NCBI GenBank assembly: GCA_963965975.1
Contig: OZ014412.1
Location: 5,892,501-5,956,500, forward strand
Direction: 5' to 3'
DNA length: 64,000 nt
Source: Xestospongia bergquistia
Taxonomy: Eukaryota; Porifera; Demospongiae; Haplosclerida; Petrosiidae
In this document: positions 7,284 to 64,000 of the stretch, one piece after another
Numbering within the stretch: the first letter of the stretch is position 1
Layout: each line of letters begins with the position of its first letter
The notes under the pieces: generated by a model
Database searches by the model: none
What the model saw: only the letters and a program-made list of their open reading frames with translations
Told to the model about the DNA's origin: nothing
Position numbers and translations under genes: made by a program

Positions 7284-10200
7284 ATGATTCTCTTCATACT
7301 TCTGCCTTTCTTTTTGGTTAATATTGCTTTCTGTGAGTTTATTTCTTTTTTTTTTTTCGAAATTATAAACTTATAGGCCTAATAAGATTACATGTAGTTA
7401 TGACTAATATTAATTATTCTATAATGTCAGCTTTTTCTGCACTCAATCAAACATCTCCGTTTTATTCGCCTGTGTGTCTTGGAGATACTGTAGAATTCAC
7501 TTGTATTGCTAGTGATACTGGATCTACTTTTTGGAGAGTAAAAGGAGGAGTAGCACTTCGTTTACACAGTGGCAAACAGTCTGATTCCATTGAAAGTTTT
7601 ACATTAAACGTTATAGAGATAAATGGCACAACAGTAGTATCTACTGCTACTGTTCAAACTGTCACATTACAATTAAATGGAGCTAGTATTAGTTGTTCTG
7701 CTAATTTACAAGGTCCATACATTACACAGTCAATAAATATAGCAGGTAACTTTAGCTTAGTTATATTTAGTAACATATCATCTACTTACTTTACAGGTCC
7801 ACCAGATATAGTCAATAATGTCACTATTATACCTGTTAATAGTACATCAGCTATATTGAGTTGGTCTCCAGGGTATCACTGTGTAGTGAACTATACTGTC
7901 GCTGTACTCAGTAGCAGTACTTGTAATACAGATCAATATAATACAAGAGATAATACTACATCAATTATTATAAACCTTGTAACAGGAGTACAATATTTAT
8001 TTATTGCTACTGCTAGAGACAGCTATGGAAGAATAGGACCTCCTAGTCAGTTATTAAACTATACTTGGGATGGTAAGATAAAATAAACAAGTATGTGTTA
8101 AATAATTTTATCTTTTAAAGTACCATTACAAGTTATAAACATCACATGGTTTTCAATTTCAAATACTGATACTGAACTAATTTGGCTAGTAAGATAATTT
8201 TAAAATAATACTATCTTTCAATATCATTTTTAAATTCATAGCCACAAGAAGACATATCTCGTCCTTCTATTCTATATTATATTGTGACAAATCCATTGAC
8301 CAATACAGTTATTAATACTACTAATACCAGTGTTATTATTACTGGACTAACTCCTGGTCAATATTATAATATTAATATTACAGCTGTTAATATCATTGGA
8401 CCTGGTCCTGTACTTATGATAAATGGTAAGTTAATATAATATTGTAGAGATATTGGTTAATAAGATTTGTTACAGTTATAATACCGTCAATAGTGACAAG
8501 TTCTTCAAGTTAGTTTCAAATATGTATATATCATTTTATTTCACTTATGTCTAGCTACTGCATTGACATCTACTACACAAACATTATCAGTACCATTATC
8601 ATTAACTAGTATGTGAACTAAACAAATTGAGTATTTTATTAATATAGTTTTTACTATAGCAACATCAACATCTATAGTTATCTCTACAGATCCTTTTAGT
8701 CCAGTAATGACTACAATCTCATCATCCATAACAAAACAAAGTGATTTGATTGACTTGGAATTGATACATTTTTATATTATATTTAGATACTGTTAGTATC
8801 ACTCCATTGACTTTATATTCTTCTAATGTGAAAATGGAGACACTTAAGTTAGTTGGTCCAATTGCTGGTGTTATTGTTGGACTTATTGCTATTATCACTA
8901 TATCTGTTGTTTTATTTATGATTATAACAATAAGATTAAGAAGAAAAGCAAACAGTATGTCACTATTTTGACTTGATTCATAATAAGGGACCAGTACTGG
9001 CAAAACATTTGTGAACTGATTCATGGAAAAAGACCACTGTTAAAACATCTCAAAGAACAGTTGTGTATACATACAGTTACTATATATGCACAACTATTCA
9101 AGGTAACTGTATGTATACAAAACTTTTTTTGAGGTATTTTAACAGTGGTCCCTTTTCACAAATCTAGTCACAACTGTTTTGACAGGAGTGTTCCCTTATT
9201 ACAAATCAGGTCACATATACAAAACTGAGATGATATAGTACTTTCATTTTTATTGTTGCAGGGTACAAGCCATCAAATAGATCATTGGGAAGGTTAACAT
9301 AAGTTTGTAATTATATATACTAACAATTTAATGTCATTATAGGGACAATTCAAGTAATGAAAATAAGGTAAATACATTTTCGACTTACCATTTATTGAAG
9401 TGTTCCACTCACTTACTTCTATAGTCAATTAGAGAAACAATATTGACTTTTGAACATGAGGTAAAATACACATTTAAAATAAAATATACATGTAACTTAC
9501 CTTTATGACTGAATATGGATAGCTAATACTACTTATTAAATATTAAATTAATATTATTAATAATATATAATAATATTAATATTATTAATAATAATTTATT
9601 AAATTATATGAACAATTTGTCTTATATTATATAGCCACTAAGAGAACTTCCTGTCGAATAATATTACATTTAGATTAAATCTATCTATTTTCTTTCAGTT
9701 ATCTTCAGACCCTACCTATGCTGAAGTAAAGAAAAAACCACAACTTCTATCTTTACAGTATGATGAAGTCCGTCCTCCAGTGTCTCCATACTCACCTATT
9801 AATGACCATCCACCTCCTATAACTCTGTTCCATGGTGGAGATGAGCCTCTTGTACCACCATGTAATGGACTTATGACAGCTCAGTACTCTGAAGTTAAAA
9901 GAGAAAATATGGCACCACATTTACTACCACATATCAGTACAACTGCTAGAGATTATTGAGTATTAAAGAGAGATGATATATCTAATGTACCACTACATAA
10001 TGTGACAGTTGGAAAAGACTACTCTGTCATAAAGAGAAATGGTGTACCTTATAATTTAGCAGCTGAATGCAACTATTCTGTCTTAAAGAGAGAAGAGAGA
10101 GAGGTTAGTTAAACATAGGTAGACAATCATAGTCTAATTTACAATATTGTTATTATAGAGCAAAGGAAATAATTCTCAGTTACAACAGACTTCAACTCTA

Positions 10201-10632
10201 AACAATGAAGTATGGGATAATACAGTCCACTATATCATAATAACTTAAATTATATTAGATGAACAAACAAACTGGAGCTGGAGCTAAGCCAAAAGGAGCT
10301 GGAGGTATAATATATGCTGAACTTGGCAATGTTCCTAAGAACAGACCAATGGCACCTCCTATATTAATTACAGAGCAGTCTGTTATCTACTCTGACATCA
10401 AGGCATCAACTGATCCTAATAAGGTATCAAATGTCATATACATCAATGTTACTATAGTTACCATTCTCTTCATTGTCACAAGTAGAGGCTCTCTATAAGA
10501 GGCGCTATGATACAAGCTCATTTAGGAAACTTGGAGATCCCTCCACCATGTCCTCCTAAATCTGCTCCCAAACCTGGTTCCCATAGCAATGGAGGAAGAT
10601 CAATGACAGTCTCCTCTTTACATCACCTATAA
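7284..10632 (+). CDS. Receptor B1: Ig-FN3-FN3-TM with long tyrosine-motif tail (T1), tail truncated by a stop
   Basis: Exon 1 (7284-7332) is a signal peptide (MILFILLPFFLVNIAF). Exon 2 (7398-7745) is an alpha-class Ig with SPVCLGDTVEFTCIAS, STFWRV and ASISCSANL. Exon 3 (7797-8072) is FN3-1 (AILSWSPGYHCVVNYTV..). Exons 4 (8121-8188) and 5 (8241-8425) are FN3-2. Several small Ser/Thr-rich stalk exons follow, then a TM exon (8787-8954) with IAGVIVGLIAIITISVVLF and stop-transfer RLRRK. Small tail exons precede the main tail exon (9699-10103), which has YAEV, YDEV, YSPI and YSEV. At 9957-9959 a TGA replaces the TCA of B2, ending the protein at ..ARDY. Downstream exons (about 10160-10209, 10259-10423, 10486-10632) still carry IIYAEL, VIYSDI and a Pro-rich end (PPPCPPKSAPKPG) but would be untranslated. 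Ectodomain likely intact; signalling probably reduced. Confidence 0.8.
8969..9213. mobile_element. Palindromic MITE-like element, copy 1 (intron of B1)
   Basis: Terminal inverted repeats of the form TGAC(C/T)TGATTnnTAATAAGGGACC, then ACTGTTAAAACATCTCAAA and a central ATACAGTTACTA hairpin. It lies just after the TM exon of B1. The same insertion is in B2, so it predates the pair's duplication. Confidence 0.8.
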
Positions 10633-15547: not shown

Positions 15548-18500
15548 ATGATTCTCTTCATACTTCTGCCTTTCTTTTTGGTTGATATTGCTTTCCGTGA
15601 GTTTATTTTTTATTTTTTTACATGTAGTTATGACTAATATTAATTATTCTATAATGTCAGCTTTTTCTACACTCAATCAAACATCTCCATTTTATTCGCC
15701 TGTGTGTCTTGGAGATACTGTAGAATTCACTTGTATTGCTAGTGGTACTGGATCTACTTTTTGGAAAGTAAATGAAGGAGTAGCACTTCGTTTACACAGT
15801 GGCAAACAGTCTGATTCCATTGAAAGTTTTACATTAAACGTTATAGAGATAAATGGCACAACAGTAGTATCTACTGCTACTGTTCAAACTGTCACATTAC
15901 AATTAAATGGAGCTAGTATTAGTTGTTCTGCTAATTTACAAGGTCCATACATTACACAGTCAATAAATATAGCAGGTAACTTTAGCTTAGTTATATTTAG
16001 TAACATATCATCTACTTACTTTACAGGTCCACCAGATATAGTCAATAATGTCACTATTATATCTGTTAATAGTACATCAGCTATATTGAGTTGGTCTCCA
16101 GGATATTACTGTGTAGTGTACTATACTATCGCTGTACTCAGTAGCAGTACTTATAATACAGATCAATATAATACAAGTGATAATGCTACATCAATTATTA
16201 TAAACCTTGTAACAGGAGTACAATATTTATTTATTGCTACTGCTAGAGACAGCTATGGAAGAATAGGACCTCCTAGTCAGTTATTAAAGTATACTTGGGA
16301 TGGTAAGATAAAATAAACAAGTTTGTGTTAAATAATTTTATCTTTTAAAGTACCATTACAAGTTATAAACATCACATGGTTTTCAATTTCAAATACTGAT
16401 ACTGAACTAATTTGGATAGTAAGATAATTTTAAAATAATACTATCTTTCAATATCATTTTTAAATTCATAGCCACAAGAAGACATATCTCGTCCTTCTAT
16501 TCTATATTATATTGTGACAAATCCATTGACTAATACAGTTATTAATACTACTAATACCAGTGTTATTATTACTGGACTAACTCCTGGTCAATATTATAAT
16601 ATTAATATTACAGCTGTTAATATCATTGGACCTGGTCCTGTACTTATGATAAATGGTAAGTTAATATAATATTGTAGAGATATTGGTTAATAAGATTTGT
16701 TACAGTTATAATACCGTCAATAGTGACAAGTTCTTCAAGTTAGTTTCAAATATGTATATATCATTTTATTTCACTTATGTCTAGCTACTGCATTGACATC
16801 TACTACACAAACATTATCAGTACCATTATCATTAACTAGTATGTGAACTAAACAAATTGAGTATTTTATTAATATAGTTTTTACTATAGCAACATCAACA
16901 TCTATAGTTATCTCTACAGATCCTTTTAGTCCAGTAATGACTACAATCTCATCATCCATAACAAAACAAAGTGATTTGATTGACTTGGAATTGATACATT
17001 TTTATATTATATTTAGATACTGTTAGTATCACTCCATTGACTTTATATTCTTCTAATGTGAAAATGGAGACACTTAAGTTAGTTGGTCCAATTGCTGGTG
17101 TTATTGTTGGACTTATTGCTATTATCACTATATCTGTTGTTTTATTTATGATTATAACAATAAGATTAAGAAGAAAAGCAAACAGTATGTCACTATTTTG
17201 ACTTGATTCATAATAAGGGACCAGTACTGGCAAAACATTTGTGAACTGATTCATGGAAAAAGACCACTGTTAAAACATCTCAAAGAACAGTTGTGTATAC
17301 ATACAGTTACTATATATGCACAACTATTCAAGGTAACTGTATGTATACAAAACTTTTTTTGAGGTATTTTAACAGTGGTCCCTTTTCACAAATCTAGTCA
17401 CAACTGTTTTGACAGGAGTGTTCCCCTTATTACAAATCAGGTCACATATACAAAACTGAGATGATATAGTACTTTCATTTTTATTGTTGCAGGGTACAAG
17501 CCATCAAATAGATCATTGGGAAGGTTAACATAAGTTTGTAATTATATATACTAACAATTTAATGTCATTATAGGGACAATTCAAGTAATGAAAATAAGGT
17601 AAATACATTTTTGACTTACTATTTATTGAAGTGTCCCACTCACTTACTTCTATAGTCAATTAGAGAAACAATATTGACTTTTGAACATGAGGTAAAATAC
17701 ACATTTAAAATAAAATATACATGTAACTTACCTTTATGACTGAATATGGATAGCTAATACTACTTATTAAATATTAAATTAATATTATTAATAATATATA
17801 ATAATATTAATATTATTAATAATAATTTATTAAATTAAATGAACAATTTGTCTTATATTATATAGCCACTAAGAGAACTTCCTGTCGAATAATATTACAT
17901 TTAGATTAAATCTATCTATTTTCTTTCAGTTATCTTCAGACCCTACCTATGCTGAAGTAAAGAAAAAACCACAACTTCTATCTTTACAGTATGATGAAGT
18001 CCGTCCTCCAGTGTCTCCATACTCACCTATTAATGACCATCTACCTCCTATAACTCTGTTCCATGGTGGAGATGACCCTCTTGTACCACCATGTAATGGA
18101 CTTATGACAGCTCAGTACTCTGAAGTTAAAAGAGAAAATATGGCACCTCATTTACTACCACATATCAGTACAACAGCTAGAGATTATTCAGTATTAAAGA
18201 GAGATGATATATCTAATGTACCACTACATAATGTGACAGTTGGAAAAGACTACTCTGTCATAAAGAGAGATGGTGTACCTTATAATTTAGCAGCTGAATG
18301 CAATGATTCTGTCTTGAAGAGAGAAGACAGAGAGGTTAGTTAAACATAGGTAGACAATCATAGTCTAATTTACAATATTGTTATTATAGAGCAAAGGAAA
18401 TAATAATTCTCAGTTACAACAGACTTCAACTCTAAACAATGAAGTATGGGATAATACAGTCCACTATATCATAATAACTTAAATTATATTAGATGAACAA

Positions 18501-21965: not shown

Positions 21966-23339
21966 GTCATTAGTTATATATCACTTAAGCAGCTGCTATA
22001 AATACATAGTTTGTCATACATTAAAGTTATTATAGTTATAAAAGAACAACTCTTAATTAACTCCCACTCTAATGAACATTCTTTTTACCTTTTGACAGAA
22101 TGGGTGGAGTTCCAGATTTAGTAGTCATCAGAGGAAACATTGTTGAAGTTAGCCTCACATTCCTAAGAAAACCACATCATAGACATTCCAAAAGCCTACT
22201 CAATAGGATGATTTGAATGTGAGGCTGAAGCAGTGCTTTCACGTGAAAGAAGGTTTGTGTTTTGGATTTGCTTATATATGAATATGAAAATATCCTTGGC
22301 TCACTTCTAGGTTTAGTATATAATGTATGAACTGAGAATATGGCAATCAGGTCAGCAGTGCCAGCTGTGTTTCACTGCCAGAACTGAGTAAATGAAGGTA
22401 ACCTGAGACTCATATATCTATCCCTACACCTACAGGGGAGATGTTTGATTTAAATTAATAGATAACTTGTCTCTCGTGTCCAGATATGAGTGTCCAACTG
22501 CCAAATGATAGTTTCATTACCTCCTAATCAATTGTGATGAGTTTGAGCAATGCTTTTTGAGGATTGTAAGAACTTGAAATACATGCTAAATGCAGAGTGA
22601 GTATAGATATGGCTGACGTATACTATAACGAAGTAGTCATTGCCTCAAACCTTCACTGTGGCCTTGCTATATTATATGGACTACCTAGTGATAAGTATTG
22701 GAGGCATGGTAAGTATCATGATATAACAGTAGTTCATGGGATACACATATCTGGACACAGACAAATCAGTTTATTAGTTTGAACAGACCTTTCTACTAGA
22801 GTGGAAGTGGTCAGGCTATGCTAGACTAAGTGTACATGACCAATATCAAATATAATGAGAGATCAATGTTTTGTGGAAGTGCATAGTATTTATGTACTAG
22901 CTTTACATGACCAATTTATTGTTAAAAGTACTAAAGGAAGAAGTTTATAAGAAAAATACATGGTTCAACATTTTCCATTTTTAATTGAAGGAGACATAGT
23001 ACCTACGCTTGCAATGGTCTCAACTGTATTCTTGCATACAAAATATATGTGAATATAATTAATACAAACAATGTACTATATACCTTAATAGTCCAACAAA
23101 AATAGTTATTTTGACATTTTCTTTTTTTGCTGGGTGGAGACACCACACCTACTCTTGTAATGGTCTCCACTACATTTGTACTTACAAAACTCCAACAAGT
23201 ACCATATCTTATTACTTAGCTGGTAGGTCTTATAACCAGTTTGACTAAATGATTACTTATCTATTTCAGAGATTTATTTGAGTTCTTCGGTCATTTAAAC
23301 TAGTTTCATTTAGTCTCCTCTCTCCTCTTATACTACAAA

Positions 23340-24205: not shown

Positions 24206-24289
24206 TATAGTTACCATTCATTCGTTTTGAACTGATTTAAACTGTCAAAACTCAAGTATTACAAGACTGTAATATATATTCATAACTAC

Positions 24290-32022: not shown

Positions 32023-32095
32023 TCTTTGTAAAGTTCACAACTCAATAACAACAACAACTTTTTTTAAACAAAATGTACCAATATATATATATACA

Positions 32096-35464: not shown

Positions 35465-39417
<3,953 letters not shown>

Positions 39418-41110: not shown

Positions 41111-41267
41111 ATTAAGGCATAACTAAATAAATGTTAGCTTGTATATATAACTTACATTAATTGGGTATTGATGTCTTTGGTTCTCTAAATATATAAAAAG
41201 TCAACGATAGTCTGTGTTATCTATATCAAATCTACAAGACCTATTTGTATAACAATAATATAACAAT

Positions 41268-46730: not shown

Positions 46731-48613
46731 ATGTATATTTTGTTGACCCTTTTGACTCTACTTCTTTCTACTCAAGGTAATCTAACAAATAATAACTGAT
46801 AATGTTTTCATTTTCATTGTTAAAAGTATTTTTAGTATGTTCTCAAGTTATATCTTATAACTGTCTTGATGAAGTGTGTCCATTGGAGAACACTGAGTTG
46901 ACATGTCATGTCATGGGAAATACTATGCGTTGGTATGCACCACCAGACAATCAACTTGGAGCCATTTTTGCTTTGGTTCCATCTACACACACTTTTACAC
47001 AGTCAGGATACACTGGCACTTATATTAACTATACCAATGTATCTGGAATGTGGACTATGTTAAGTTTTACTGCTACTACTGATAAGAATGGAACACAAGT
47101 CAGGTGTTTTGATGGCATTAATGCAGCTTCAATGACTTGTACTATTATGATATCAGGTATGTCACTAACAGTATCATATATAACTAACATGTACTATCAT
47201 TATAAGGTCCTCCAAGTGATGTTCCTACAGGACTGGGTTTTACAGCTCTCACAAATACTTCAGTCACTCTTTACTGGTCACCTCCTACTCTTTATCCTAA
47301 CTGTATAGTTAACTATACTGTTGAGATCAGGACAACCAGTGATAATATATTGATCAGTAGTCTTATTACTGGTGGTAATATTACCAGTATTAATGTATCT
47401 ACTGGTCTCTCTCAGTCAATAGAGTATCAGTATAGAGTAGTAGGGTCTGATGCTGTTAATAGATTAGGACCCTATAGTCAATATACTGTGTTCACTCTGG
47501 ATGGTAAGAACTATACTATAAACATAATATTACTATTCTCAACAGTTCCTCAGGCAGTATCACTAGTTATTAATGATATTATAAATAATACTAATAACTT
47601 TACAATCTTCATTGCTTGGAAGGTATATATTATAAAATAACTTGTATTTTACTTTTTTCATTGTAGTCTCCTCCTCTTTCCTCTCGTCCTCCTCTCTTGT
47701 ACTACAAAGTCTATCACAACATATCAAGTTCACTAACTGTTAATATAACTACTGTTACTAACATTACATTGACTGGAGTACTAGGTGGATATACCTACAT
47801 TATAACAGTGATACCAGTTAATATACTAGGAGATGGATACCCTAATAAGACTATAGGTTATTTAAATATTATTATAAATTGTGTTATGTTTACTTCTCAT
47901 ACAGTTATCATTCCTAAAGAACCAATAATCACTAGTGTTGTAATAACATCATTTAATGGAAGTAATCAATGTGTTATTTATTAGTAAATGTACTTATTAC
48001 TTTTCCATATTATTGTAGTCATGACGACAAGTGCTTCGTTAAATATTAGTAAGTGTATAAATATTTATTATTGTATATAGTTTGTGATATCTATAGAAAC
48101 TACAAGTACATTGATGTTATTATCAACTCCAACAAGTACTATATCTTTTAACTTAACAGGTTGTTCCTATTATAGATAGTTTAACAAATGATTAATGACT
48201 TAGTTATTTCACAGATACTTACTTTAGTTCTTTAGTCATTCAAACTTCAACTGTTTGTTCATGTCCAAGTAATTTATAATTAAAACTGACTTTACAATTA
48301 TTTTTATTACAGCTAATGAAAAACAACAAACCTTATGTTTATCAGGTAATAAGCAAACATGTTTTATTACTAAATTGTTTACTTAACAGTGAGTATACCA
48401 GTCAGTATGTTCTTCTCTTCTCTATTAACTGCTGTTATTACTACATTTATTGTCTATCTCATTATGAGAAGAAGGAGCTACAATAAAGACACTCCACCCA
48501 CTATTACCACTCAATTAGGTCCGATATATGATGATGTTAAGTTACCAGAGACCTCAGAACAGAAAGAAATCATTGAATTACAAGGAAATACTGCATATGG
48601 ATATATTAATTAG
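46731..48613 (+). CDS. Receptor F: beta Ig-FN3-FN3-TM with T2 tail
   Basis: Signal exon 46731-46776 (MYILLTLLTLLLSTQ). Ig exon 46836-47156 (CLDEVCPLENTELTCHV, MRWYAPP, TQVRCFDGI). FN3-1 47207-47503 (VTLYWSPP, YPNCIVNYTVEI). FN3-2 47546-47622 and 47667-47856 (LLYYKVYHNISSS, GYTYIITVIPVN). Linker and tiny Ser/Thr-rich stalk exons run from 47900 to 48340. The last exon, about 48391-48613, has a TM (MFFSSLLTAVITTFIVYLIM), RRRSYNKD, PIYDDVKLPE and C-terminal TAYGYIN. All frames stay open across the predicted junctions. The ectodomain is the same as in E and H, but E has a T3 tail: a clear ectodomain/tail swap. Downstream neighbour G begins only about 240 bases later on the same strand. Confidence 0.87.
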
Positions 48614-48849: not shown

Positions 48850-51129
48850 ATGAACATCAATTGTTATTGTCTATTGCTCCTTTTGAAATGTGTTGTTATC
48901 ACATGTATGTAAGTTACCAATGTTAGTTTTCTATTTTAAATGATCATATTATTTTAGTATCATTTACAAGTCTTAATCAAACATCTCCATTATATTCTCC
49001 TGTGTGTCTTGGAGATACTGTAGTATTCACTTGTATTGCTAGTGGTACTGGATCTGTTGTATGGAGAGGAGATAAAGGAACACCACGAACATTTTTTAAT
49101 CTTGTACTATCACAGTTTGTTGATAGCTATATAGTAAATGTTATAGAGATAAATGGCACAACAGTAGTCTCTACTGCTACTGTAAATGTCACATCACAAT
49201 TGAATGGATCTAGTATTAGTTGTGACAATGGAAATGATCCATCAATAACTCAGTATATTCAAATTACAGGTTAGTGAGTTGGTATGGTAAAGAATTTAAC
49301 TAGATCAAATTTACAGGTCCACCAGATATAGTCAATAATGTCACTATTATACCTGTTAATAGTACATCAGCTATATTGAGTTGGTCTCCAGGATATTACT
49401 GTGTAGTGAACTATACTCTCACTGTACTCAGTAGTACTAACAATACAGATCAATATAATACAAGTGATAATACTACATCAATTGTTATAAACTTTATAAC
49501 AGGAGTACAATATTCATTTATTGTTATTGCAAGAGACAATGTTGGAAGAATAGGACCTCCTAGTCACTTATTAAACTATACTTGGGATGGTAAGATAATC
49601 AAGTATGTGTTATATAATGTTATAATTTATTAAAGTGCCATCATTACAAGTTACAAACGTCACTTTGTTTCCAATTTCATATAATGTTACTGAAGTAATT
49701 TGGATAGTAAGATAATTTTAAAATAATAGTACTAAATAAATATCTCATTCCTATTTACAGGCATTAATAGACATATCTCGTCCTCCTATTTTATATTATA
49801 TTGTGACAAATCCATTGACTAATACAGTTATTAATACTACTAATACCAGTGTTATTATTACTGAACTAACTCCTGGTCAATATTATAATATTAATATCAC
49901 AGCTGTTAATATTATTGGACATGGTCCTGTACTTATAATAAATAGTAAGTTAATATAATATTGTACTGATTAGGTTGATAAGTTTCTTATAGTTACAATA
50001 CCACTAATAGTGACAAGTTCTTCATCAAGTTAGTACACAATACTCTGTATTTCATTTAAATAGATATCCTCTGTTGATCTTATAACGCTAACACTTATTA
50101 TTTAATAATTAGTTAATATATTTGTATATATTATGTCAATTACTTGTAATTTAATAAATAACAATTAATTTTAACAAAATATAAAATTGAATACATAATT
50201 TTGTATTTATTTCAGGTACTACTACTAAATCATTATCAATATACAATAATGTTATATCTACATTATTAACAACTGATACTACTAGTGTGACTACCACATA
50301 TACAGGTATGTTAAATATAAGAGTAGAAAATATTATTAATGAACATGAAAGCACATTTTTCAATCCAATCATCATTATCTGGACACCCTTATATAGACAG
50401 TGCAACTCACTGGCTTATATGTTAATAATAAGAAAAATACCTATGTATTACTATAGTTATAAATTTAAAGTATCCATTAATACTTTAGTATCTACAATAT
50501 TAGTGTCTAATATTTTACGTTTTTTATGATAAATTCTAAAAACTTTAACTTTATTGATATCATCATTAATTCCAGCAAGTACTATATCATCTCACTCAGC
50601 TAGTATGTCCTTTATAGTTTAAATGTTTAGTTATTAATTTAACAGACATTGTCATGACTTTTCCAACTATTCTTACATCTACTGTAACAAGTCTCCCTAC
50701 TGATAGACCTAGTAATGGTAAGTTATATATTACTACTGTTGTTTACTATCTCTCTTATATCTTAGTATTAAGTGATGGAGTTATTGCTGGTATTATTATT
50801 AGTATTGTTATCTTACTAGTACTAATAATAATTGTTATGATAACTATTGTAGTAATCTTAATATATAAAGGTCAGTACTATATAGTATAGTGAGTTGTAC
50901 TATTACCACTATATGTGTGTGTGTCCTACTAGTGTCCAGTACTAAACAGAGTAGAGGTGAGACTAGTCCAGTGATAAAAGAGTTCTTCTCAGAGAAAAAT
51001 GAAGCCTATGGTATAAGTAAAGGATCAGATGATCAGTCACCAATTGAAGTAACAGAGAATGTAGCATATAGTACAATGGAACAACAACTATCACTTAATA
51101 CTCCTCCAGTTTATGAGACAATAAATTAA
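48850..51129 (+). CDS. Receptor G: alpha Ig-FN3-FN3-TM with T3 tail
   Basis: Signal exon 48850-48904 (MNINCYCLLLLKCVVIT) using a GTATGT donor. Ig exon 48958-49269 (SPVCLGDTVVFTCIAS, SVVWRGDKG, SSISCDNGN). FN3-1 49317-49589 (AILSWSPGYYCVVNYTL). FN3-2 about 49635-49710 and 49763-49945 (EVIWI, RPPILYYIVTNP). Stalk exons lie between 49990 and 50725, some weakly defined. The TM is at about 50768-50869 (GVIAGIIISIVILLVLIIIV) and the last exon at 50935-51129 with EAYGIS, NVAYSTM and VYETIN-stop. It pairs the B/C-type ectodomain with the tail of E and of the cadherin gene. The middle of the Ig (after WRGDKG) differs from L, whose flanking sequence is nearly the same. That is where variation concentrates in this class. 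Confidence 0.85.
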
Positions 51130-51659
51130 AATAATAATAAAACAACTAATATTGTCTGTTAATATATTTTTATGGTTAATTTACTGCATAAAGGATATTA
51201 ATTTCCATTTAACAAGAATATTTCTTGCTACAAGAGATGACACTTTTCACCTGGATAGGCTTTGTACAGTTAAAGCAATTGGTATTTCACTTATGATCCC
51301 TTTTCAAAGCATACTGGTTGTATATAACTATATTGCTATATTGTGATGACAAGAAGCCAAAAAATGATCTATTGTTCATGGGTTCAATTAAAGTCATGAG
51401 TATATACTATTTCAACTGAACTTATCCAATTAGTTTAATTAAAACAGTAACCATCATTTGTTCATGGTTTCAAATACAAAAATTACTTTTTGGCTTCTCA
51501 TTGTCTTTATACATATTAAGTTAGACTAGTTTTGGTTTTGTGGTAACTCACTATTGTACATACAACATATTAATGAAACTATGGTAACAAAGACCTCAGT
51601 TAAAATGACAAAATGCAATTTTTAATGTAATTTATAAAACAAACATGTTACATTACTGA

Positions 51660-51868
51660 ATTGTTTAATTACACCAGTCAGTATGTTTATCTCTTTTCTG
51701 TACTTATTTCTATATCATAAGAAGGAGGAGCCACAATGAAGACACTCCACCCACTACATTTACCTAATTAGATTCAATATATGATGATGTTAAGTTACCA
51801 GAGATCTCAGAACAGAAAGAGATCATTGAATTACATGGAAATACTGCTTATAGATATATTAATTAGAA
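51660..51868 (+). pseudogene. T2 TM/tail exon remnant
   Basis: Homologous to the last exon of F/H. The TM part is shortened and frameshifted (ATTTCTATATCATAAGAAGG) and TAG replaces the Gly codon in the TQLGPIYDDV region. It ends with codons for TAYRYIN, so the last motif is also altered. Copied again at 55575-55770. Confidence 0.85.
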
Positions 51869-52244
51869 TTTCTTATAGCCACATATAATATAGATTATAA
51901 TATATTATATATATATATATATTAATCATCATAACTGTATTCAATAGAAGTACATACACATTATAAATGTGTCAATAATTGATGACTGATTCATTTAAAA
52001 CGTTTACTTATGATAGTGTCTAAATTAACTGTCATATTAAAACAAGTACTAATGTCTGTTAATTTATTTTTACGTTTAATTTACCGCATAGAGGATATTA
52101 ATTCTCATTTAACAAGAATATTTCTTGCTACAAGAGATGACACTTTTCACCTGGATAGGCTTTGTACAGTTAAAGCAACTGTATTGCTATATTGTACAGT
52201 GAGTTATACTATTACCACTGTATATGTATGTGTTTCCTACTAGT

Positions 52245-52390
52245 GTCTAGTACTAAACAGAGTAGAGGTGAGACTAGTCCAGTGATAAAAGAATTCTTCT
52301 CAGAACAAAATGAAGCCTATGGTATAACTAAAGGATCAGATGATCAGTCACCAATTGAAGTAACAGAGAATGTAGCATATAGTACAATAT
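52245..52390 (+). pseudogene. T3 last-exon remnant, truncated
   Basis: Opens as an intact T3 exon (SSTKQSRGETSPVIKEFF, GITKGSDDQ, ENVAYST) but breaks off after AGTACAAT into the upstream flank of gene H. The YETI motif is lost, and there is no TM exon in front. Confidence 0.85.
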
Positions 52391-52734
52391 ATTTAAAAGT
52401 TCATCGTATTATAATCTATATATACCAAACATTTAACAAAATTCAGTACTATACTGCCAATATTTTTAAAACATGAGAAAAAATATATGCTAATATTAGT
52501 ATGCATATTCTACCAAATTTATTCCATTAATCATCATATATGATCATACCACTGTAATATATGAGTTATAATTATGTTGATCTATCCATTTCTAATTAAA
52601 TTGTGTGCTAAAACAACTGATGTCAGGGTATCTCCCCTAAATATATTGGTCAACATAAACATTGTCTAATAGACTAATACTGCCTAGTATAGTATAGTTC
52701 AACTACCACACCTTTATTAGTTAATAGTCCAGTT

Positions 52735-54595
52735 ATGTATGGTCTGTTGACTCTACTTCTTTCTACTCAAGGTAATCTAACAAATAATAACTGATAATGT
52801 TTTCATTTTCATTGTTAAAAGTATTTTTAGTATGTTCTCAAGTTATATCTTATAACTGTCTTGATGAAGTGTGTCCATTGGAGAACACTGAGTTGACATG
52901 TCATGTCATGGGAAATGGTATGCGTTGGTATGCACCACCAGGCAATCAACTTGGAGCAATTTTTGCTTTGGTTCCATCTACACACACTTTTACACAGTCA
53001 GGTTATACTGGCACTTTTATTAACTACACCAGTGTGTCTGGAATGTGGACTATGTTAAGTTTTACTGCTACTACTGATAAGAATGGTACACAAGTAAGGT
53101 GTTTTGATGCTATTAATGCAGCTTCAATGACTTGTACTATTTTGATATCAGGTATGTCACTAACAGTATCATATATAACTAACATGTAATATCATTATAA
53201 GGTCCTCCAAGTGATGCTCCTACAGGATTGGGTTTTATAGCTATCACAAACACTTCAGTCACTCTCTACTGGTCACCTCCTACTCTTTATCCTAACTGTA
53301 TAGTTAACTACACTGTTGAGATCATGACAACCAGTGATAATACATTGATCAGTAGTCTTAGTACTGGTAGTAATATCACCGGTATTAATGTATCTACTGG
53401 TCTCTCTCAGTCAGTAGAGTATCAGTACAGAGTAGTAGGGTCTGATGCTATTAATAGATTAGGACCCTATAGTCAATATACTGCATTCACTCTGGATGGT
53501 AAGAACTATATTATAAACATAATATTACTATTCTCACAGTTCCCCAGGCAGTATCACTAGTCATTAATGATAATTATTATAAATAATACTTATAACTTTA
53601 CTATCTTCATTGCTTGGGAGGTATATATTATAAAATAACTTGTATTTTAATTTTTTCATTGTAGTCTCCTCCTATTTCCTCTCATCCTCCTCTATTGTAC
53701 TACAAAGTCTATCACAACATATCAGGTTCACTAACTGTTAATATAACTACTGTTACTAACATTACATTGACTGGAGTACTAGCTGGATATACCTACATTA
53801 TAACAGTGGTACCAGTTAATATACTAGGAGATGGATACCCTAATAAGACTATAGGTTATTTAAATATTATTATAAATTGTGTTATGTTTACTTCTCATAT
53901 AGTTATCATTCCTAAAGAACCAATAATCACTAGTGTTGTAATAACATCATTTAATGGAAGTAATCAATGTATTATTTATCACTTATTTCTTTTCCATATT
54001 ATTGTAGTCATCACAACAAGTGCTTCATTAAATATTAGTAAGTCTATAAATATTTATTAATGTATATAGTTTATGATATCTATAGAAACTACAAGTACAT
54101 TGATGTTATTATCAACTCCAACAAGTACTACATCTTTAACAGGTTGTTCCTATATAGATAGTTTAACAAATGATTAATGACTTAGTTATTTCACAGATAC
54201 TTACTTTAGTTCTTTAGTCATTCAAACTTCAACTATTTGTTCATGTCCAAGTAATTTATAATTAAAAGTGACTTTACAATTATTTTCATTACAGCTAATG
54301 AAAAACAACAAACCTTATGTTTATCAGGTAATAAACAAACATGTTACATTACTGAATTGTTTACTTAACAGTGAGTATACCAGTCAGTATGTTCCTCTCT
54401 TCTCTATTAACTGCTGTTATTACTACACTTATTGTCTATCTCATTATGAAAAGGAGGAGCTACAATAAAGACACTCCACCCACTATTACTACTCAATTAG
54501 GTCCGATATATGATGATGTTAAGTTACCAGAGACCTCAGAACAGAGAGAAATCATTGAATTACAAGGAAATACTGCATATGGATATATTAATTAG
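52735..54595 (+). pseudogene. Receptor H: beta Ig-FN3-FN3-TM with T2 tail, frameshifted in FN3-2
   Basis: Signal exon 52735-52771 (MYGLLTLLLSTQ). Ig 52831-53151 (CLDEVCPLENTELTCHV, MRWYAPP, TQVRCFDAI). FN3-1 53202-53498. The first FN3-2 exon (53540-53621) carries a four-base insertion relative to F (GATAATTATTATAAATAAT against GATATTATAAATAAT), giving a TAA in frame at about 53585. The second FN3-2 exon (53665-53855) is intact, as are the stalk exons and the last exon (54373-54595; MFLSSLLTAVITTLIVYLIM, PIYDDVKLPE, TAYGYIN). So either the gene is dead or the damaged exon is skipped. That exon is 82 bases, so skipping would itself shift the frame unless another exon compensates. The rest shows no decay, so the lesion is recent or an assembly error. 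Confidence 0.75.
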
Positions 54596-54828: not shown

Positions 54829-55036
54829 TATGAACATCAATTGTTATTGTCTATTCCTCCTTTTGAAATGTGATGTTGTCACATGTATGTAACTTACCAA
54901 TGTTAGTCAAACGTATGGTATAACTAGAGGATCAGATGATCAGTCATCAATTGAAGTAACAGAGAATGTAGCATATAGTACAATGGAACAACAACCATCA
55001 CTTAATACTCCTCCAGTTTATGAAACAATAAATTAA
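54829..55036 (+). pseudogene. Signal exon of G/L type fused to a T3 tail (internal deletion)
   Basis: ATGAACATCAATTGTTATTG at 54829 matches the signal exons of G and L, with a small change near its end (GTGATGTTGTCAC). About 70 bases later, in what should be the first intron, the sequence switches to the T3 last exon (GITRGSDDQSSIEV..VYETIN-stop). Ig, FN3, stalk and TM exons are missing. Confidence 0.8.
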
Positions 55037-55574
55037 GATAATAATAAAACAACTGATATTGTCTGTTAATATATTTTTATGGTTAATTTACTGCATAAAG
55101 GATATTAATTTCCATTTAACAAGAATATTTCTTGCTACAAGAGATGACACTTTTCACCTGGATAGGCTTTGTACAGTTAAAGCAATTGGTATTTTACTTA
55201 TAATCCCTTTTCAATGCATACTGGTTGTATATAACTATATTGCTATATTGTGAATATTAGAAGCCAAAATGTGATCAATTGTTCATGACATTAAAGTCAT
55301 GAGTATATACTATTTCAACTGAACTAATCCAATTAGTTTAATTAAAACAGTAACCATCACTTGTTCATGGTTTCAAATACAAAGATTACTTTTTGGCTTC
55401 TCATTGTCTTTATACATATTGAATTAGACTAGTTTTGGTTTTGTGGTAACTCACTATTGGGCAAACAACATATTAATGAAACTATGGTAACAAAGACCAC
55501 GGTTAAAATGACAAAATGTAATTTTTAATGTAATTTATAAAACAAACATGTTACATTACTGAATTGTTTAATTA

Positions 55575-55770
55575 CACCAGTCAGTATGTTTATCTCTTTT
55601 CTGTACTTATTTCTATATCATAAGAAGGAGGAGCCACAATGAAGACACTCCACCCACTACATTTACCTAATTAGATTCAATATATGATGATGTTAAGTTA
55701 CCAGAGATCTCAGAACAGAAATAGATCATCGAATTACATGGAAATACTGCTTATGGATATATTAATTAGA
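55575..55770 (+). pseudogene. T2 TM/tail exon remnant, second copy
   Basis: Near-duplicate of 51660-51868 with the same TM deletion and TAG, plus an extra stop (CAGAAATAGATC). It retains codons for TAYGYIN. Confidence 0.85.
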
Positions 55771-56111
55771 ATTTCTTATAGCCACATATAATATAAATTA
55801 TAATATATTTGATATATATATATTAATCATCATAACTGCATTCAATAGAAGTACATACACATTATAAATGTGTCAATAATTGATGACTGATTCATTTAAA
55901 ATGTTTACTTATGATAGTGTCTAAATGAACTGTCAATGTTATTGTTAGAATTTAATTTTGTTATTATAATAATGTAGGTAGAGCACCATCTTCAGCCAAC
56001 CTTCAAAGAAGCTCTAATAATTTAATTGAGTGTCATTGTCTATATACATGCACATTCATGTTAAAATGGTATAAAATCTATGAGGATTGTATGTATGTGT
56101 GTGTCCTACTA

Positions 56112-56310
56112 GAGTCCAGTACTAAACAGAGTAGAAGTGAGACTAGTCCAGTGATAAAAGAGTTCTCTGACAAAAATGAAGCCTATGGTATAACTAAAGG
56201 ATCAGATGATCAGTCACCAATTGAAGTAACAGAGAATTAATGTAGCGTATAGTACAATGGAACAACAACTATCACTTAATACTCCTCCAGTTTATGAGAC
56301 AATAAACTAA
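56112..56310 (+). pseudogene. T3 last-exon remnant with four-base insertion
   Basis: Reads SSTKQSRSETSPVIKEF, GITKGSDDQSPIEVTEN, then TTAA inserted after AGAGAA creates a stop before the YSTM motif. The downstream part ([16 protein letters not shown]) is preserved out of frame. No TM exon precedes it within 1 kb. Confidence 0.85.
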
Positions 56311-56604: not shown

Positions 56605-58512
56605 ATGGAGGAGTATATTGTAACATTAGTTTGTATTCTTGTCCTTGTTATAGGTGAGTTGATGTTATAATTACAATATTAAATGTAATCATTTGCTTCA
56701 TAGTCAAGTCAGAAGCTTCAGTTACAAGTCTAGACTGCAATCATGGAGTATGTCCACAGACACAAGGAGCAGTCACTTGTACAATAACAGGCAGTGTAGC
56801 AGCTTGGTATTCTCCTCCATCAGATAGTAGTCCAATTGCTACAGTAACAATCTCTGGACAAGTTAGTAATTTTGGTAATACTGGATTTACTGCTGTTTTT
56901 GTGAGCAACAATTCTGGACTAACAACTAATTTAATTTTTACTGCCACTACTGATAAGAATGGAACACAAGTCAGGTGTAATGATGTAATAGATACAAACT
57001 CAATGACTTGTATTATTATGATATCAGGTATGTCCCTAATTACAGTATAATATATAACTAACATGTTCTATCATTATAAGGTCCTCCAAGTGATGCTCCT
57101 ACAGGACTGGGTTTTATAGCTCTCACAAACACTTCAGTCACTCTCTACTGGTCACCACCTACTCTTCATCCTAACTGTATAGTTAACTACACTGTTGAGA
57201 TCAGAACAACCAGTGATAATATATTGATCATTAGTGTTAGTACTGGTAGTAATATCACCAGTATTAATGTATCTACTGGTCTCTCTCAGTCAATAGAGTA
57301 TCATTACAGAGTAGTAGGGTCTGATGCTGTTAATAGATTAGGACCCTATAGTCAATATACTGTGTTCACTCTTGATGGTAAGAAATAATGTTCTAACCTC
57401 TCAAGTAGTGCCAATTTTAGTTCTACAGGCTGTACCACTAATCCTTTATAATACCATAAAAAATACTGAGAACTATACTATCATTTTTAATTGGGAGGTA
57501 TATATTATTTTTCTAATATTGTTACTTTAGTTTTCTTTAGTCACCTCCTCTCTCCTCTCGTCCTCCTCTCTTGTACTATAAAGTCTATCACAACATATCA
57601 GGTTCACTAACTGTTAATATAACTACTGTTACTAACATTACATTGACTGGAGTACTAGCTGGATATACCTACATTATAACAGTGGTACCAGTTAATATAC
57701 TAGGAGATGGATACCCTAATATGACTATAGGTTATTTAAATATTATTATAAAATGTGTTATATTTACTTCTCTTATAGTTATCATTCCTAAAGAACCAAC
57801 AATCACTAGTAATGTAATAACATCATTTAATGGAAGTAATCAATGTATTATTTATCAGTAAATGTATTTATTACTTTTCCTAATTATTGCAGTTATCACA
57901 ACAAGTGTTTCATTAAATTTTAGTAAGTACAAATATCTATTATTGTAAGTATTTTATTATAAGTATAGAAACTATAAGTTCATATATATCATCGTCAACT
58001 CCAAGAAGTACTATATCTTTTTACTTTAATGGTAGATCATTATAGTCAGTTTGACTAAATGATTACTTATCTATTTCACAGACACTTATTTGAGTTCTTC
58101 AGTTATTCAAATTTCTACAGTCACTGTAACTTCAACTGTTTGTACATGTCCAAGTAATTTTATAGTCAATAGTATTTATAAGTGTACAATTATGTTTCCA
58201 TTATAGTTAATGAAAGACAACAAACATCATACTTAGTAGGTAATTTATATAACAAATATGTTATTTTACTTAATTATTTACTTAACAGTGAGTATACCAG
58301 TCAGTATTTTCATCACATTTCTATTAACTGCTGTTATTACTACACTTATTGTTTATCTCATTATGATAAGGAGGAGCTATAATAAAGACACTCCACCCAC
58401 TACCACTACCCAATTAGGTCCAATATATGATGATATTAAGTTACCAGAGACTTCAGAACAGAAAGAGACCATTGAATTACAAGGAAACACCGCTTATGGA
58501 TATATTAATTAA
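56605..58512 (+). CDS. Receptor J: Ig-FN3-FN3-TM with T2 tail
   Basis: Signal exon 56605-56653 (MEEYIVTLVCILVLVI). Ig exon 56704-57027 (CNHGVCPQTQGAVTCTI, AAWYSPPSD, TQVRCNDVI). FN3-1 57081-57377 (VTLYWSPP, CIVNYTVEI). FN3-2 57421-57497 and 57541-57730 (RPPLLYYKVYHNISGS, GYTYIITVVPVN). Linker and stalk exons run from 57776 to about 58225. The last exon, 58289-58512, has a TM (IFITFLLTAVITTLIVYLIM), RRSYNKD, PIYDDIKLPE and C-terminal TAYGYIN. It is the intact relative of the broken gene D. From FN3-1 onward it is nearly identical to F/H, and only the signal and Ig exons differ, so the Ig exon looks exchanged. Confidence 0.87.
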
Positions 58513-60538: not shown

Positions 60539-62533
60539 ATGTTTTTTGGCCTTTTAGTGCTATCGTTTCTGAAATTTGCAAGCTCTCAAGGTTAGGACAA
60601 ATATAAAATATTACATTACCAAGTATTGACTTTTATTTGTTAATTCCAGTCATTTTACAGCAGACCCTTCCCTCTTATTCTTTTGTTTGTCCTGGAGATA
60701 ATGTAGTATTAACTTGTACTGTAACTGGTACTCTAATCCAATGGATAAATCCTGTAAATAATACAAATTCAGTAGCATATAGTGTAACATCAACTCCTGG
60801 TACTACTGGTACTGTTGGTAAATTTACTGTGGTCTTTGTGAGCAGTGTCTCAAATGTCATTAAATCTGAAGCAAGACTTTATAATGTATCATCTCATCAT
60901 AATGGTAGTAGTATTATTTGTAATAATGTTATTATGGATATAAGTAACCAGATTGAGGTTGTAGTGTCTGGTAAGTATTTGAATAATTATACAATTACAC
61001 GATATAATCTAAAAACATTATATATAGGTACTCCCTCAAGTCCACAAAATGTTACTTTCTTTCCTCTCAATTCATTATCTCTCATATTATACTGGTCAGT
61101 ACCATTGGAGAGTAGACACTGTATAGTTAACTACAGTGTTAAAGTAAACAATACTTGGCAACAACTAGTAACTACTAATACTTCAGTAGTAATAACTGAT
61201 CTATCTGTTGACTCAATATATGAGATTATAGTAACTGGAAGAGACAGTGAAGGAAGACAAGGAGTTAACAGCGACTTACTATCTATTACATGGGATGGTA
61301 AGTGATACACTAACATACTATTATGTTATCTGATATATCTAGTACCTCTACCAGTTATAATATTAAATGTTACTACTACTTATGAGGGATTATTAACAAC
61401 TACTAACATATTCTGGGAGGTATATTATGTATGTTTTATATATTTTATTAATAGATTAGGATGTTTAGTCAATATACTATGTTCAATCTGCAGATATGTT
61501 TAAAATATTAGAATCACAAGTGATATTTTCCTTATATTAATGATATGTTAATTCTTTGGATGACGTATATTATATTATCAGATGCTTCTGCAATTTTAGC
61601 CTCTTATCTCCTCTCATCCTCCTCTCTTGTACTACAAAGTCTATCACAACATATCAAGTTCACTAACTGTTAATATAACTACGGCTACTAACATTACATT
61701 GACTGGAGTACTAGCTGGATATACCTACATTATAACAGTGGTACCAGTTAATATACTAGGAGATGGATACCCTAATAAGACTATAGGTTATTTAAACATT
61801 ATTATAAATTGTGTTATGTTTACTTCTCATATAGTTATCATTCCTAAAGAACCAATAATCACTAGTGTTATAATAACATCATTTAATGAAAGTAATCAAT
61901 GCATTATTTATCTGTAAATGTACTTACAACTTTCCATATTATTGCAGTCATCACAACAAGTGATTATTTAAATATTAGTAAGTATAAATATCAGATTATT
62001 GTACATATTTTATGATAAAAATAGAAACTATAAGTTTATTGTCAACTCGAACAAGTACAATATCTTCTCTCTTAACTGGTATATGTTCTATGTAGCCTGT
62101 TTGATAAATTTCTAGTAATCACTCACAGAAAATATATTGACTTCTTTGATTATTCCTACAGTGATCATAACTTCAACTGTTTGTTCAAGTTAGTCAGTTA
62201 ACAGTAAAAACTAAATTTCCCATTATAGATAATGAAAAACAACAAATTTCATGTTTATCAGGTAACAAAGCAAACATGTTTTATTACTAAATTGTTTACA
62301 TAACAGTGAGTATACCAGTCAGTATGTTCCTCTCTTCTCTATTAACTGCTGTTATTGCTACACTTATATTCTATCTCATTATAAGAAGGAGGAGTTACAA
62401 TAAAGACACTCCACCTGCTACTACTACTACCCTATTAGTTCCAATATATGATGATGTTAAGTTACCAGAGACCTCAGAGCAGAAAGAGATCATTGAATTA
62501 CAAGAAAATACTGCTTATGGATATATAAATTAG
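60539..62533 (+). CDS. Receptor K: divergent Ig-FN3-FN3-TM with T2 tail
   Basis: Signal exon 60539-60590 (MFFGLLVLSFLKFASSQ). Ig exon 60650-60970 (YSFVCPGDNVVLTCTV, LIQWINPVN, SSIICNNVI), the most diverged Ig of the cluster. FN3-1 61028-61297 (LILYWSVP, HCIVNYSVKV, SIYEIIVTGRD). FN3-2: a short first exon 61355-61419 (ending IFWE) and a second exon 61600-61790 (LLYYKVYHNISSS), which is of the F/J type. Stalk exons run from 61835 to about 62265. The last exon, 62307-62533, has a TM (MFLSSLLTAVIATLIFYLII), RRRSYNKD, PIYDDVKLPE and TAYGYIN. The 5' half is unique while the 3' half is almost identical to F/H/J. The intron between Ig and FN3-1 is 57 bases, free of stops and a multiple of three, so retention would keep frame. 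Confidence 0.85.
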
Positions 62534-62737
62534 AATTTCTTAGTTTGACACACTATTTGTCACATACAGTATTAATAACTTGTAATGTTTTAGTTATCAT
62601 AATTCTGTTGAATATGTTTATACTGGGATACTGTCAGTATTAGGTGGGTTGAGACTGGTCCACCTACCTTATCACAGTTATCAATGATTACTAAAGCTCT
62701 ATATCACTTAGATATATATCTTAGTGTCATTGTAGGT

Positions 62738-64000
62738 ATGAACATCAATTCTTATTGTCTATTCCTCCTTTTGAAATGTGTTGTTATCACATGTATGTAA
62801 GTTACCAATGTTAGTTTTCTATTTTAAATGATCATTTTATTGTAGTATCATTTACAAGTCTTAATCAAACATCTCCATTATATTCTCCTGTGTGTCTTGG
62901 AGATACTGTAGTATTCACTTGTATTGCTAGTGGTACTGGATCTGCTGTATGGAGAGGAGATAAAGGAACAGTTCGTACTTTATACAGTGGCAAACAGTCT
63001 GATGTTGTTGATAGTTTTACAGTAAGTGTTATAGAGATAAATGGTACAACAGTAGTATCTACTGCTACTGTTCAAACTGTCACATTACAATTAAATGGAG
63101 CTAGTATTAGTTGTTCTGCTAATTTACAAGGTCCATATATTACACAGTCAATAAATATAGCAGGTAACTTTAGCTTAGCTGTATTTAGTAACATATCATG
63201 TACTTACTTTACAGATCAACCAGATATAGTCAATAATGTGACTATTATACCTGTTAATAGTACATCAGCTATATTGAGTTGGTCTCCAGGATATTACTGT
63301 GTAGTGAACTATACTGTCACTGTACTCAGTAGTACTAACAATACAGATCAATATAATACAAGTGATAATACTACATCAATTGTTATAAACTTTATAACAG
63401 GAGTACAATATTCATTTATTGTTATTGCAAGAGACAATGTTGGAAGAGTAGGACCTCCTAGTCAGTTACTGAACTACACTTGGGATGGTAAGAAGTAACA
63501 CATGTTTCTATGTTAAGATACTCTTTATCTAGTACCATTACAAGTTGTTGACATCAAGTTTCATATCATGATATTAAAATATTATGGACAGTAAGGTGTA
63601 TATAATATATACTATTTATTGTTATTGATTTCATAGGCTCAAATAGACATATCTCGTCCTCCTATTTTATATTATATTGTGACAAATCCATTAACCAATA
63701 CAGTTATTAACACTACTAATACCAGTGTTATTATTACTGGATTAACTCCTGGTCAATATTATAATATTAATATCACAGCTGTTAATATCATTGGACCTGG
63801 TCCTGTACTTGTAATAAATGGTATGTAATATAATATTGTACAGATATAAGATAAAATTCCTTATATAGTTACAATACCACTAATAGTGACAAGTTCTTTA
63901 TCAAGTTAGTTTTAAATATGATATACCACTTTATTTCACTTATGTCTATAGCTACTACATGGACATCTATTACATTACAACTACCAGTAACTAGTATGTG
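62738..64000 (+). CDS. Receptor L: alpha Ig-FN3-FN3 (cut by window end)
   Basis: Signal exon 62738-62792 (MNINSYCLFLLLKCVVIT). Ig exon 62846-63163 (SPVCLGDTVVFTCIAS, SAVWRGDKG, ASISCSANL). FN3-1 63215-63487 (AILSWSPGYYCVVNYTV). FN3-2 about 63534-63590 and 63638-63821 (RPPILYYIVTNP). Stalk exons from about 63870 run to the edge, so the TM and tail are outside the window. The first half of the Ig matches G and the second half (from VQTVTLQLNG) matches B/C, including an almost identical 51-base intron, suggesting gene conversion. Only about 200 bases separate it from K. Confidence 0.85.

Follow-up and report, generated by a model that had tools for sequence, protein, structure and literature searches.

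The 64,000-nucleotide window analysed here, from the sponge Xestospongia bergquistia (contig OZ014412.1; G000:C2:5892501-5956500), carries a tandem series of genes predicted to encode type I membrane receptors, with a signal peptide, an immunoglobulin (Ig) domain, two FN3 domains (FN3-1 and FN3-2), a Ser/Thr-rich stalk, a transmembrane (TM) segment and a short tail with tyrosine motifs. The array to which they belong is about 430 kb long and runs to about 6.33 Mb on the contig; the window covers a part close to one of its ends. Ectodomain classes (alpha, beta, gamma, delta and kappa) were set by identity cut-offs, and the tails fall into three types, T1, T2 and T3. The genes are listed below, with positions counted from the first nucleotide of the window.

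7284..10109, plus strand: gene B1, alpha ectodomain; Ig 7436-7744, FN3-1 7796-8071, FN3-2 8245-8427, TM1 8795-8956, T1 9699-10109
15548..18334, plus strand: gene B2, alpha ectodomain with TM1 and T1; 12 exons, open
25824..27607, plus strand: gene C, alpha ectodomain with T2; TM and tail in a single exon, 27396-27607
37898..39417, plus strand: last exons of gene D; cadherin repeats 37898-38859 (Pfam E 3.5e-25) with a phase-1 join to T3 stalk, TM and tail
43996..46197, plus strand: gene E, beta ectodomain with T3; modelled
46731..48613, plus strand: gene F, beta ectodomain with T2; modelled
48850..51129, plus strand: gene G, alpha ectodomain with T3; modelled
52839..54592, plus strand: gene H, beta ectodomain with T2; block duplicate of F (92.6%)
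56605..58512, plus strand: gene J, gamma Ig (at 56712) with beta-type FN3-1 and FN3-2 and T2; modelled
60573..62533, plus strand: gene K, kappa Ig and FN3-1 (at 60664 and 61030), beta-type FN3-2 and T2; start of first exon not fixed
62854..64000, plus strand: gene L, alpha ectodomain, with the T2 tail past the end of the window, at cl 64472

Positions prefixed cl refer to a 263.5-kb contiguous stretch comprising the window and the adjoining loci L009-L028, such that cl x is contig position 5892500 + x, and units outside the lettered genes are named by cl position divided by 100 (e.g. u1247). Pieces were located by tblastn with exon seeds in a genome of 146.5 Mb on 21 contigs. Alpha ectodomains lie at 7436, 15666, 25933, 48966 and 62854 and beta ectodomains at 44100, 46844 and 52839; T1 stands behind B1 and B2, T2 behind C, F, H, J and K, and T3 behind E and G as well as the cadherin gene D. 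The initial annotation of this DNA had described the same assignments, with the alpha ectodomain on T1, T2 and T3 (B1/B2, C and G) and the beta ectodomain on T3 in E and T2 in F and H, and all of these are present in the sequence. It had also given J and K their own Ig exons on a T2 tail, which holds, but FN3-1 and FN3-2 of J and FN3-2 of K are of beta type. The T3 tail of the cadherin gene D, the extension of the array past the window and the presence of T3 on other contigs go beyond what that annotation mentions.

Gene models were built for seven genes (B2, C, E, F, G, J and K) and for the final four exons of D. Splice sites were selected manually, following the open frame, so that the models describe compatibility with splicing as judged from DNA. 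All eight (D and K being partial) lack internal stops and have AG/GT at 63 of 63 introns. The T1 exon of B1 has an in-frame TGA at 9957, and 3' of B2 there is a further open frame at about 18485-18730 with YxxL/YxxI motifs, a putative exon that has a counterpart in B1. Most introns are of phase 1 (53, against 9 of phase 0 and 1 of phase 2), with phase 1 at the signal peptide/Ig, Ig/FN3-1, FN3-1/FN3-2, FN3-2/stalk and stalk/TM junctions. The earlier statement that exon borders share phase, so that swaps stay in frame, is borne out at the Ig, FN3, stalk and TM junctions, but not throughout: a phase-0 intron cuts the FN3-2 domain, and the T1 introns after the TM have phases 1, 2, 0 and 0.

We then assigned to each Ig exon the closest tail on its own strand, up to 4 kb away; the Ig exons came from the array (5.89-6.33 Mb) and from a second cluster at 2.8-2.9 Mb. 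Beyond the 263.5-kb stretch and the loci that were read, these pairings rest on position. Alpha ectodomains (n=9) are followed by T1 in two cases, T2 in four and T3 in three; beta (n=10) by T1 in two, T2 in seven and T3 in one; and gamma (n=28) by T1 in 10, T2 in 14 and T3 in two, with two lacking a tail. Other alpha-like ectodomains (n=6) have T2 (two) or T3 (four). All nine cells of the alpha/beta/gamma by T1/T2/T3 matrix are thus occupied by nearest-tail position, eight of them with at least one copy free of visible defect, and most units of the 263.5-kb stretch have their FN3 exons between Ig and tail. Genome-wide searches at E <=0.01 matched the T2 exon 68 times, the T3 exon 89 times and the T1 exon 19 times; the matches of T1 are all on C2, those of T2 on C2 save two on C1, and those of T3 on nine contigs.

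The strongest evidence that ectodomains and tails have been exchanged comes from amino-acid identities among 13 chosen units, given here in the order Ig, FN3-1, FN3-2 and tail. The alpha-T2 unit u628 and the alpha-T3 unit u1247 are 95, 96, 97 and 23% identical, while u1247 and the beta-T3 gene E are 18, 35, 43 and 97% identical; similarly, F (beta-T2) and u628 give 21, 38, 42 and 89%, and J (gamma-T2) and u1307 (gamma-T3) give 85, 90, 97 and 21%. The three tails have mutual global identities of only 16-30%, whereas the ectodomains of C and B2, which differ in tail, are 94.6% identical in DNA. These two-by-two contrasts rule out chance or simple divergence. Shuffling extends into the ectodomain itself, as judged from K, u649 and u1390: K and u649 are 41, 93, 41 and 20% identical and FN3-2 of K is 89% identical to that of E, while the delta-type u1390 has an alpha-type FN3-2 (84%) and T3, and a different FN3-2 and T2 are present in its relative u1340, which over Ig and FN3-1 is 88% identical to it in DNA. 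FN3-1 and FN3-2 of J are 92% and 97% identical to those of E.

Homology between swap partners usually ends close to exon borders. BLAST alignments end 4 bp (E/F) or 8 bp (C/B2) past the FN3-2 exon, the delta pair ends before the second FN3-2 exon, and the kappa pair ends just past the first. Alpha-T1 and gamma-T1 genes share DNA from just 5' of the T1 exon onward, with no match between them over the TM exons. The alpha-T3 units G, u1247 and u1283 all end their homology with L (alpha-T2) at L 63910, 90 bp past its FN3-2 exon, and because they share this end point it suggests a single founding alpha-T3 fusion that later spread and was re-recombined; u1247 clusters with alpha-T2 genes on the Ig tree. 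The predominance of phase-1 introns, together with intronic ends of homology in the alpha, beta, delta and kappa pairs, is the pattern of class 1-1 module shuffling, with two exceptions, in that gamma pairs end inside the first stalk exon of J (57779-57835) and the delta and kappa ends flank the phase-0 intron that splits FN3-2. At the level of DNA, these comparisons show that recombination in or near introns joined one ectodomain class to several tails, and one tail to several ectodomains, repeatedly.

Exon trees were expected to conflict if this were so, and on the Ig exons they do in part. In approximately unbiased (AU) tests, forcing genes with the same tail together was rejected for alpha-T2 (p-AU 8e-6), gamma-T1 (0.001) and gamma-T2 (0.0004), but not for alpha-T3 (0.066). 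Tail labels change along the alpha trees 3 times for Ig, 4 for FN3-1 and 4 for FN3-2 (shuffled mean 4.4 in each), 5 times on the gamma Ig tree (shuffled mean 6.2) and 8 times on the combined beta and gamma FN3-2 tree (shuffled mean 7.2). The trees thus support more than one swap inside ectodomain classes on a background of local duplication. The claim that ectodomains and tails have been shuffled is upheld by these Ig-exon rejections together with the identity contrasts.

T3 is also found outside the array, where joins were read from exon order; the cadherin-T3 join of the window is the one that was modelled. It lies behind I-set Ig/FN3 receptors at L031 and L033 (by Pfam on the exons) and L032 (by its FN3 exon), behind Ig/FN3 genes of the array's general kind at L030 and L038, and behind a CBM96 domain at L032:6276-6998 on the minus strand (Pfam E 1.2e-7). 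Cys-rich, somatomedin-B-like repeats at L034 and L035 are a possible further ectodomain; one of two L034 frames gave a Pfam value of 0.054, below cut-off, and three L035 repeats gave nothing. L036 is a degenerate I-set/FN3-like T3 copy, and L037 and L039 are relics; an FN3 gene on C6 at L037 was dropped as a T3 carrier since its frame ends in its own TM-like stretch and the T3 TM there is broken. In these outside cassettes the homology to that of E never exceeds about 460 bp, running from within the final stalk exon to a point shortly beyond the stop codon. A separate tandem cluster of the I-set Ig/FN3 family lies at about 0.28-0.40 Mb of C2 and also contains many T3 matches. Near this I-set/FN3-T3 cluster is a Receptor L domain exon (L031:7504-8115, minus strand; Pfam E 9e-14) that probably belongs to a separate receptor gene, and upstream of the degenerate copy are retrotransposon pol-like frames recognised by eye (L036:1704-4598, minus strand).

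To compare the exons at the level of selection we used the ratio of non-synonymous to synonymous substitution (dN/dS), obtained by a simple counting method from gene pairs that are not independent. In gamma genes the mean is 1.21 for Ig (15 genes; dN>dS in 80 of 105 pairs), and 0.55, 0.48 and 0.36 for FN3-1, FN3-2 and T2; T2 exons give 0.28-0.40. No Ig match above cut-off was returned by Pfam for the four exon frames tried, and a profile search of the Ig exons against PDB gave E-values of 0.011 or worse. A structural model of the gamma Ig from a 38-sequence alignment (predicted local distance difference test, pLDDT, 84.9) has antibody VH domains and nanobodies as its top PDB matches (E 3e-5), and by this model the gamma Ig is predicted to have the V-type fold of V-set domains.

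The tails differ in their tyrosine motifs, which we counted in 40 tails (9 T1, 22 T2 and 9 T3), leaving out minus-strand and orphan tails. TxYxx[VI] occurs in 18 of 22 T2 tails, along with 18 YDDV motifs, YSTM and YETI occur nine times each in the nine T3 tails, and every T1 tail has several Yxx[VLI] motifs. By the usual names, TxYxx[VI] in T2 resembles an immunoreceptor tyrosine-based switch motif (ITSM) and YxxM is of PI3K type; the related inhibitory motif (ITIM) is treated below.

We consider it probable, from sequence comparison, that the array is a germline family resembling paired receptors that has diversified by cassette recombination. Decayed T2 tails collinear with that of L lie behind T3 in both G and u1247; further T2 remnants follow the T3 of u898 and the T1 of the four gamma genes u1459, u1525, u1603 and u1829. 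From this arrangement we infer that a new stalk-TM-tail cassette was captured between the ectodomain and the old tail, which then decayed. Most of the swapping would have occurred between tandem copies, by unequal crossing over and by gene conversion. The Ig domain may bind a diverse ligand, and the tails, when tyrosine-phosphorylated, would recruit different SH2 proteins through TxYxxI and YDDV (T2), YSTM and YETI (T3) or YxxV/L/I (T1), so that one and the same recognition could feed different outputs, in the manner of paired receptors in immunity or of allorecognition receptors.

A number of observations weigh against this interpretation. In the matrix, beta-T1 consists of two places known by position, at one of which the T1 match has a stop, and gamma-T3 has no copy free of visible defect, since one of the two (at 31179) is broken and the tail of the other (u1307) is frameshifted in a run of A. 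The delta-T3 gene u1390 carries a similar frameshift; in both T3 tail exons (cl 132840-133045 and 141160-141365) it falls at the same A run, before the tyrosine motifs, and may be real decay or an assembly error. On the T2 exon, one clade per ectodomain class was not rejected in four classes (p 0.069-0.20), in a test that used 25 of 38 rows of a short exon and left out orphan, remnant and diverged minus-strand rows, and the T2 tree of 38 rows has 12 ectodomain-class changes against a shuffled mean of 18.5 and a minimum of 5; the classes cluster there, neighbours being related, which is what tandem duplicates would lead one to expect. Tails are also clustered on the combined beta and gamma FN3-1 tree (5 changes, shuffled mean 8.1). 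The tail half of the tree evidence is therefore weak, and the two-by-two identity contrasts carry it instead. Strong selection on specificity, as had been proposed, is partly supported: it is in keeping with the gamma Ig ratio but not with the values below 1 for the Ig of alpha (0.73) and of beta (0.37, from 4 genes). The alpha Ig model, although confident (pLDDT 95.7), has weak fold matches (best E 1.6e-3). Finally, canonical ITIMs are uncommon among the tail motifs: the ITIM consensus is found in 4 of 9 T1, 1 of 9 T3 and 5 of 22 T2 tails (two of these five inside the TM), and an immunoreceptor tyrosine-based activation motif (ITAM) in 0 of 40, a count in which the use of ITAM adaptors through a charged TM was not searched for.

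A role in adhesion or tissue patterning, with no immune or self-recognition function, is somewhat unlikely in our judgement. The joining of T3 to cadherin repeats as well would fit such proteins, and local expansion, many broken copies, rapid evolution of the gamma Ig and a V-type fold speak against it, as these features are more usual in recognition families.

An improbable alternative is that the tails are the alternative last exons of an ancestral multi-tail gene, among which copies choose by splicing or of which they have lost all but one. The remnants and broken copies in the window are as follows.

23323..24505, plus strand: remnant with a broken beta-type FN3-2, T2 with a stop and a T3 TM exon
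31179..33031, plus strand: broken copy; gamma-type Ig 31179-31484, beta-type FN3-1 31546-31842, T3 piece 32930-33031 with a stop; an FN3-2 was searched for and not found
51627..51863, plus strand: decayed T2 relic with a stop and incomplete TM, 3' of the T3 of G; collinear with the T2 of L (72% in DNA)
52187..52437, plus strand: orphan T3 tail exon, with no TM exon detected beside it
54905..56307, plus strand: tail relics behind H; T3 piece at 54905, T2 with a stop at 55611, split T3 at 56115-56307

Thirteen units have more than one tail match, and in two of these a single tail is split by a frameshift, leaving 11 with at least two successive tails. Seven of the 11 fit the T1-T3-T2 order of u1525, as might be expected of ancestral alternative exons, and Botryllus FcoR genes reportedly exchange ITIM and hemITAM through splicing (PMC12065747). 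The other four (G, H, u680 and u787) have an order that does not fit, and the first tail meets a loose intactness rule in 10 of 11 units, compared with 3 of 18 downstream tail matches. One of these three, the T3 of u787, has a TM frameshift and has lost its splice donors; the others are the T2 of u1525, in which the first 16 positions are missing, and a T2 with 43% identity at cl 121621. The presence of T3 behind cadherin and CBM96 domains would require transfer in any case.

It is very improbable that the mixed genes arose through misassembly of a repetitive array, or that most of them are pseudogenes. The array is indeed repetitive, the T1 of B1 contains a stop, 8 of the 51 units that have a tail together with an Ig or cadherin exon fail the loose intactness rule in their first tail, and at least one unit that passes (u1307) is frameshifted; yet swapped genes differ in sequence, homology end points vary between pairs, T3 is present on other contigs, eight models are open, T2 dN/dS is low, and a protein of Amphimedon has the alpha-T2 pairing. 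That each lineage kept a fixed tail which was only homogenised by gene conversion, with no ectodomain ever changing tail, can hardly be right, even though T2 tails are 79-89% identical in sampled cross-class pairs with Igs 21-46% identical, because conversion between homologous tails cannot exchange unrelated tails such as T1, T2 and T3, in which near-identical ectodomains (C/B2; alpha-T2/alpha-T3) differ.

The closest database proteins to B2, among 8000 scored candidates, are two from Amphimedon queenslandica, P0001 and P0002, which are 38% identical to B2 over 38% and 19% of its length and are annotated as FN3-containing or 'location of vulva defective 1-like'. Both have an alpha-type ectodomain, and P0001 also has a T2-like tail (GPIYD...NTAYGQI), giving the alpha-T2 pairing. 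In the present genome P0001 is 38% identical at its best-scoring place and at most 49% over a short stretch, and its tail is 35-43% identical to the T2 copies in cl 93410-105379. We found no description in the literature of a cluster or tail swap for the Amphimedon proteins. No match was obtained with a T3 TM and tail query against a set of 5.8 billion proteins, or in a protein search with the beta-T2 protein F.

Similar ectodomains on different TM segments and tails have been attributed to recombination or conversion in Xenopus XFL and dog CEACAM28 (PMC2413239, PMC2110893). The sponge array shares with these and other vertebrate paired receptors (KIR/LILR, CEACAM1/CEACAM28) an Ig gene family with recombination, conversion and domain shuffling (PMC2413239, PMC2110893), and the XFL tails also have YxxL/I/V motifs. 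It differs in having at least three tail types and not an activating/inhibitory pair, an ectodomain of Ig plus FN3, a T3 tail common to cadherin and CBM96 ectodomains, and no ITAM found. Tandem genes with closely related ectodomains are present, as is one ectodomain class on distinct TM/tail classes. Because the pairing of a canonical ITIM tail with an ITAM tail was tested and not found, we do not call the array a member of the paired receptors; by analogy, it would nonetheless work like such a family.

Among invertebrates, clustered Ig receptors whose tails are of ITIM type are reported from Hydractinia (Alr) and Botryllus (FcoR) (PMC11067881, PMC12065747). Alr is likened to the array by description: it is a clustered family of the immunoglobulin superfamily with low mutual identity, at a locus for which ITIM/ITAM-type motifs are reported (PMC12065747), and the array differs in its modular set of unrelated tails and its two FN3 domains. 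FcoR is a large linked family with variable Ig, TM, ITIM/hemITAM tails and a swappable motif (PMC12065747), but there the ectodomain is Sushi plus C2 Ig and the swap is by splicing, as opposed to the proposed genomic recombination in the sponge array. Neither a published description of this cluster, of which the initial annotation had also known none, nor a sponge repertoire in which variable Ig receptors bear phosphotyrosine tails was found in searches of open-licence PMC papers.

Other features surround the receptor genes. A distantly related Ig is encoded by a paralogue family on the opposite strand, behind which no T1, T2 or T3 was detected at the E-value used.

4287..4598, 15023-15334 and 29544-29855, minus strand: Ig exons of the paralogue family

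The three paralogue genes (2612-4728, 13308-15464 and 28080-30004) are 84-93% identical, and the second is head-to-head with the alpha gene B2. Four further minus-strand genes at cl 93410-105379 (L011-L013) have diverged T2 tails (31-36%) and Ig exons that are 23-33% like alpha or gamma, and may represent an older branch of this family. Elements of about 160-250 bp resembling miniature inverted-repeat transposable elements are located at 8969-9213, 12343-12515, 17199-17444, 21787-21954 and 24755-25009, two of them within B1 and B2, in the intron that directly follows the TM1 exon. Retroelement-like frames, recognised by eye, lie on the minus strand at 32096-32692, between FN3-1 and the T3 piece of the broken gamma-type copy, and at 34553-34987. 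A (TC)n array of about 227 bp (36002-36228) is upstream of the modelled cadherin exons of D. The minus-strand frame at 6154-6609 has a CxC...CxH motif, which we take to resemble a SWIM zinc finger, and is perhaps a transposase remnant; Pfam gave nothing above cut-off for this frame, and Rfam at gathering threshold gave no match in the window.

In sponges, aggregation factors are candidate molecules of self/non-self recognition. We suggest tentatively that the array provides a germline form of combinatorial recognition, in which cassettes go on recombining and so connect fast-evolving V-type Ig receptors to three or more phosphotyrosine tails, and in which T3 is portable genome-wide behind Ig, cadherin and carbohydrate-binding ectodomains. 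The resemblance is to vertebrate immune paired receptors, in a very early animal lineage; if the interpretation is correct, the rewiring of shared recognition to different outputs that is known from those receptors would also have arisen at the base of the animals, with a possible use in allorecognition or symbiont control. The array would offer a concrete, clonable set of receptors, and its ectodomain-by-tail matrix a natural experiment on the recombination of recognition and signalling.

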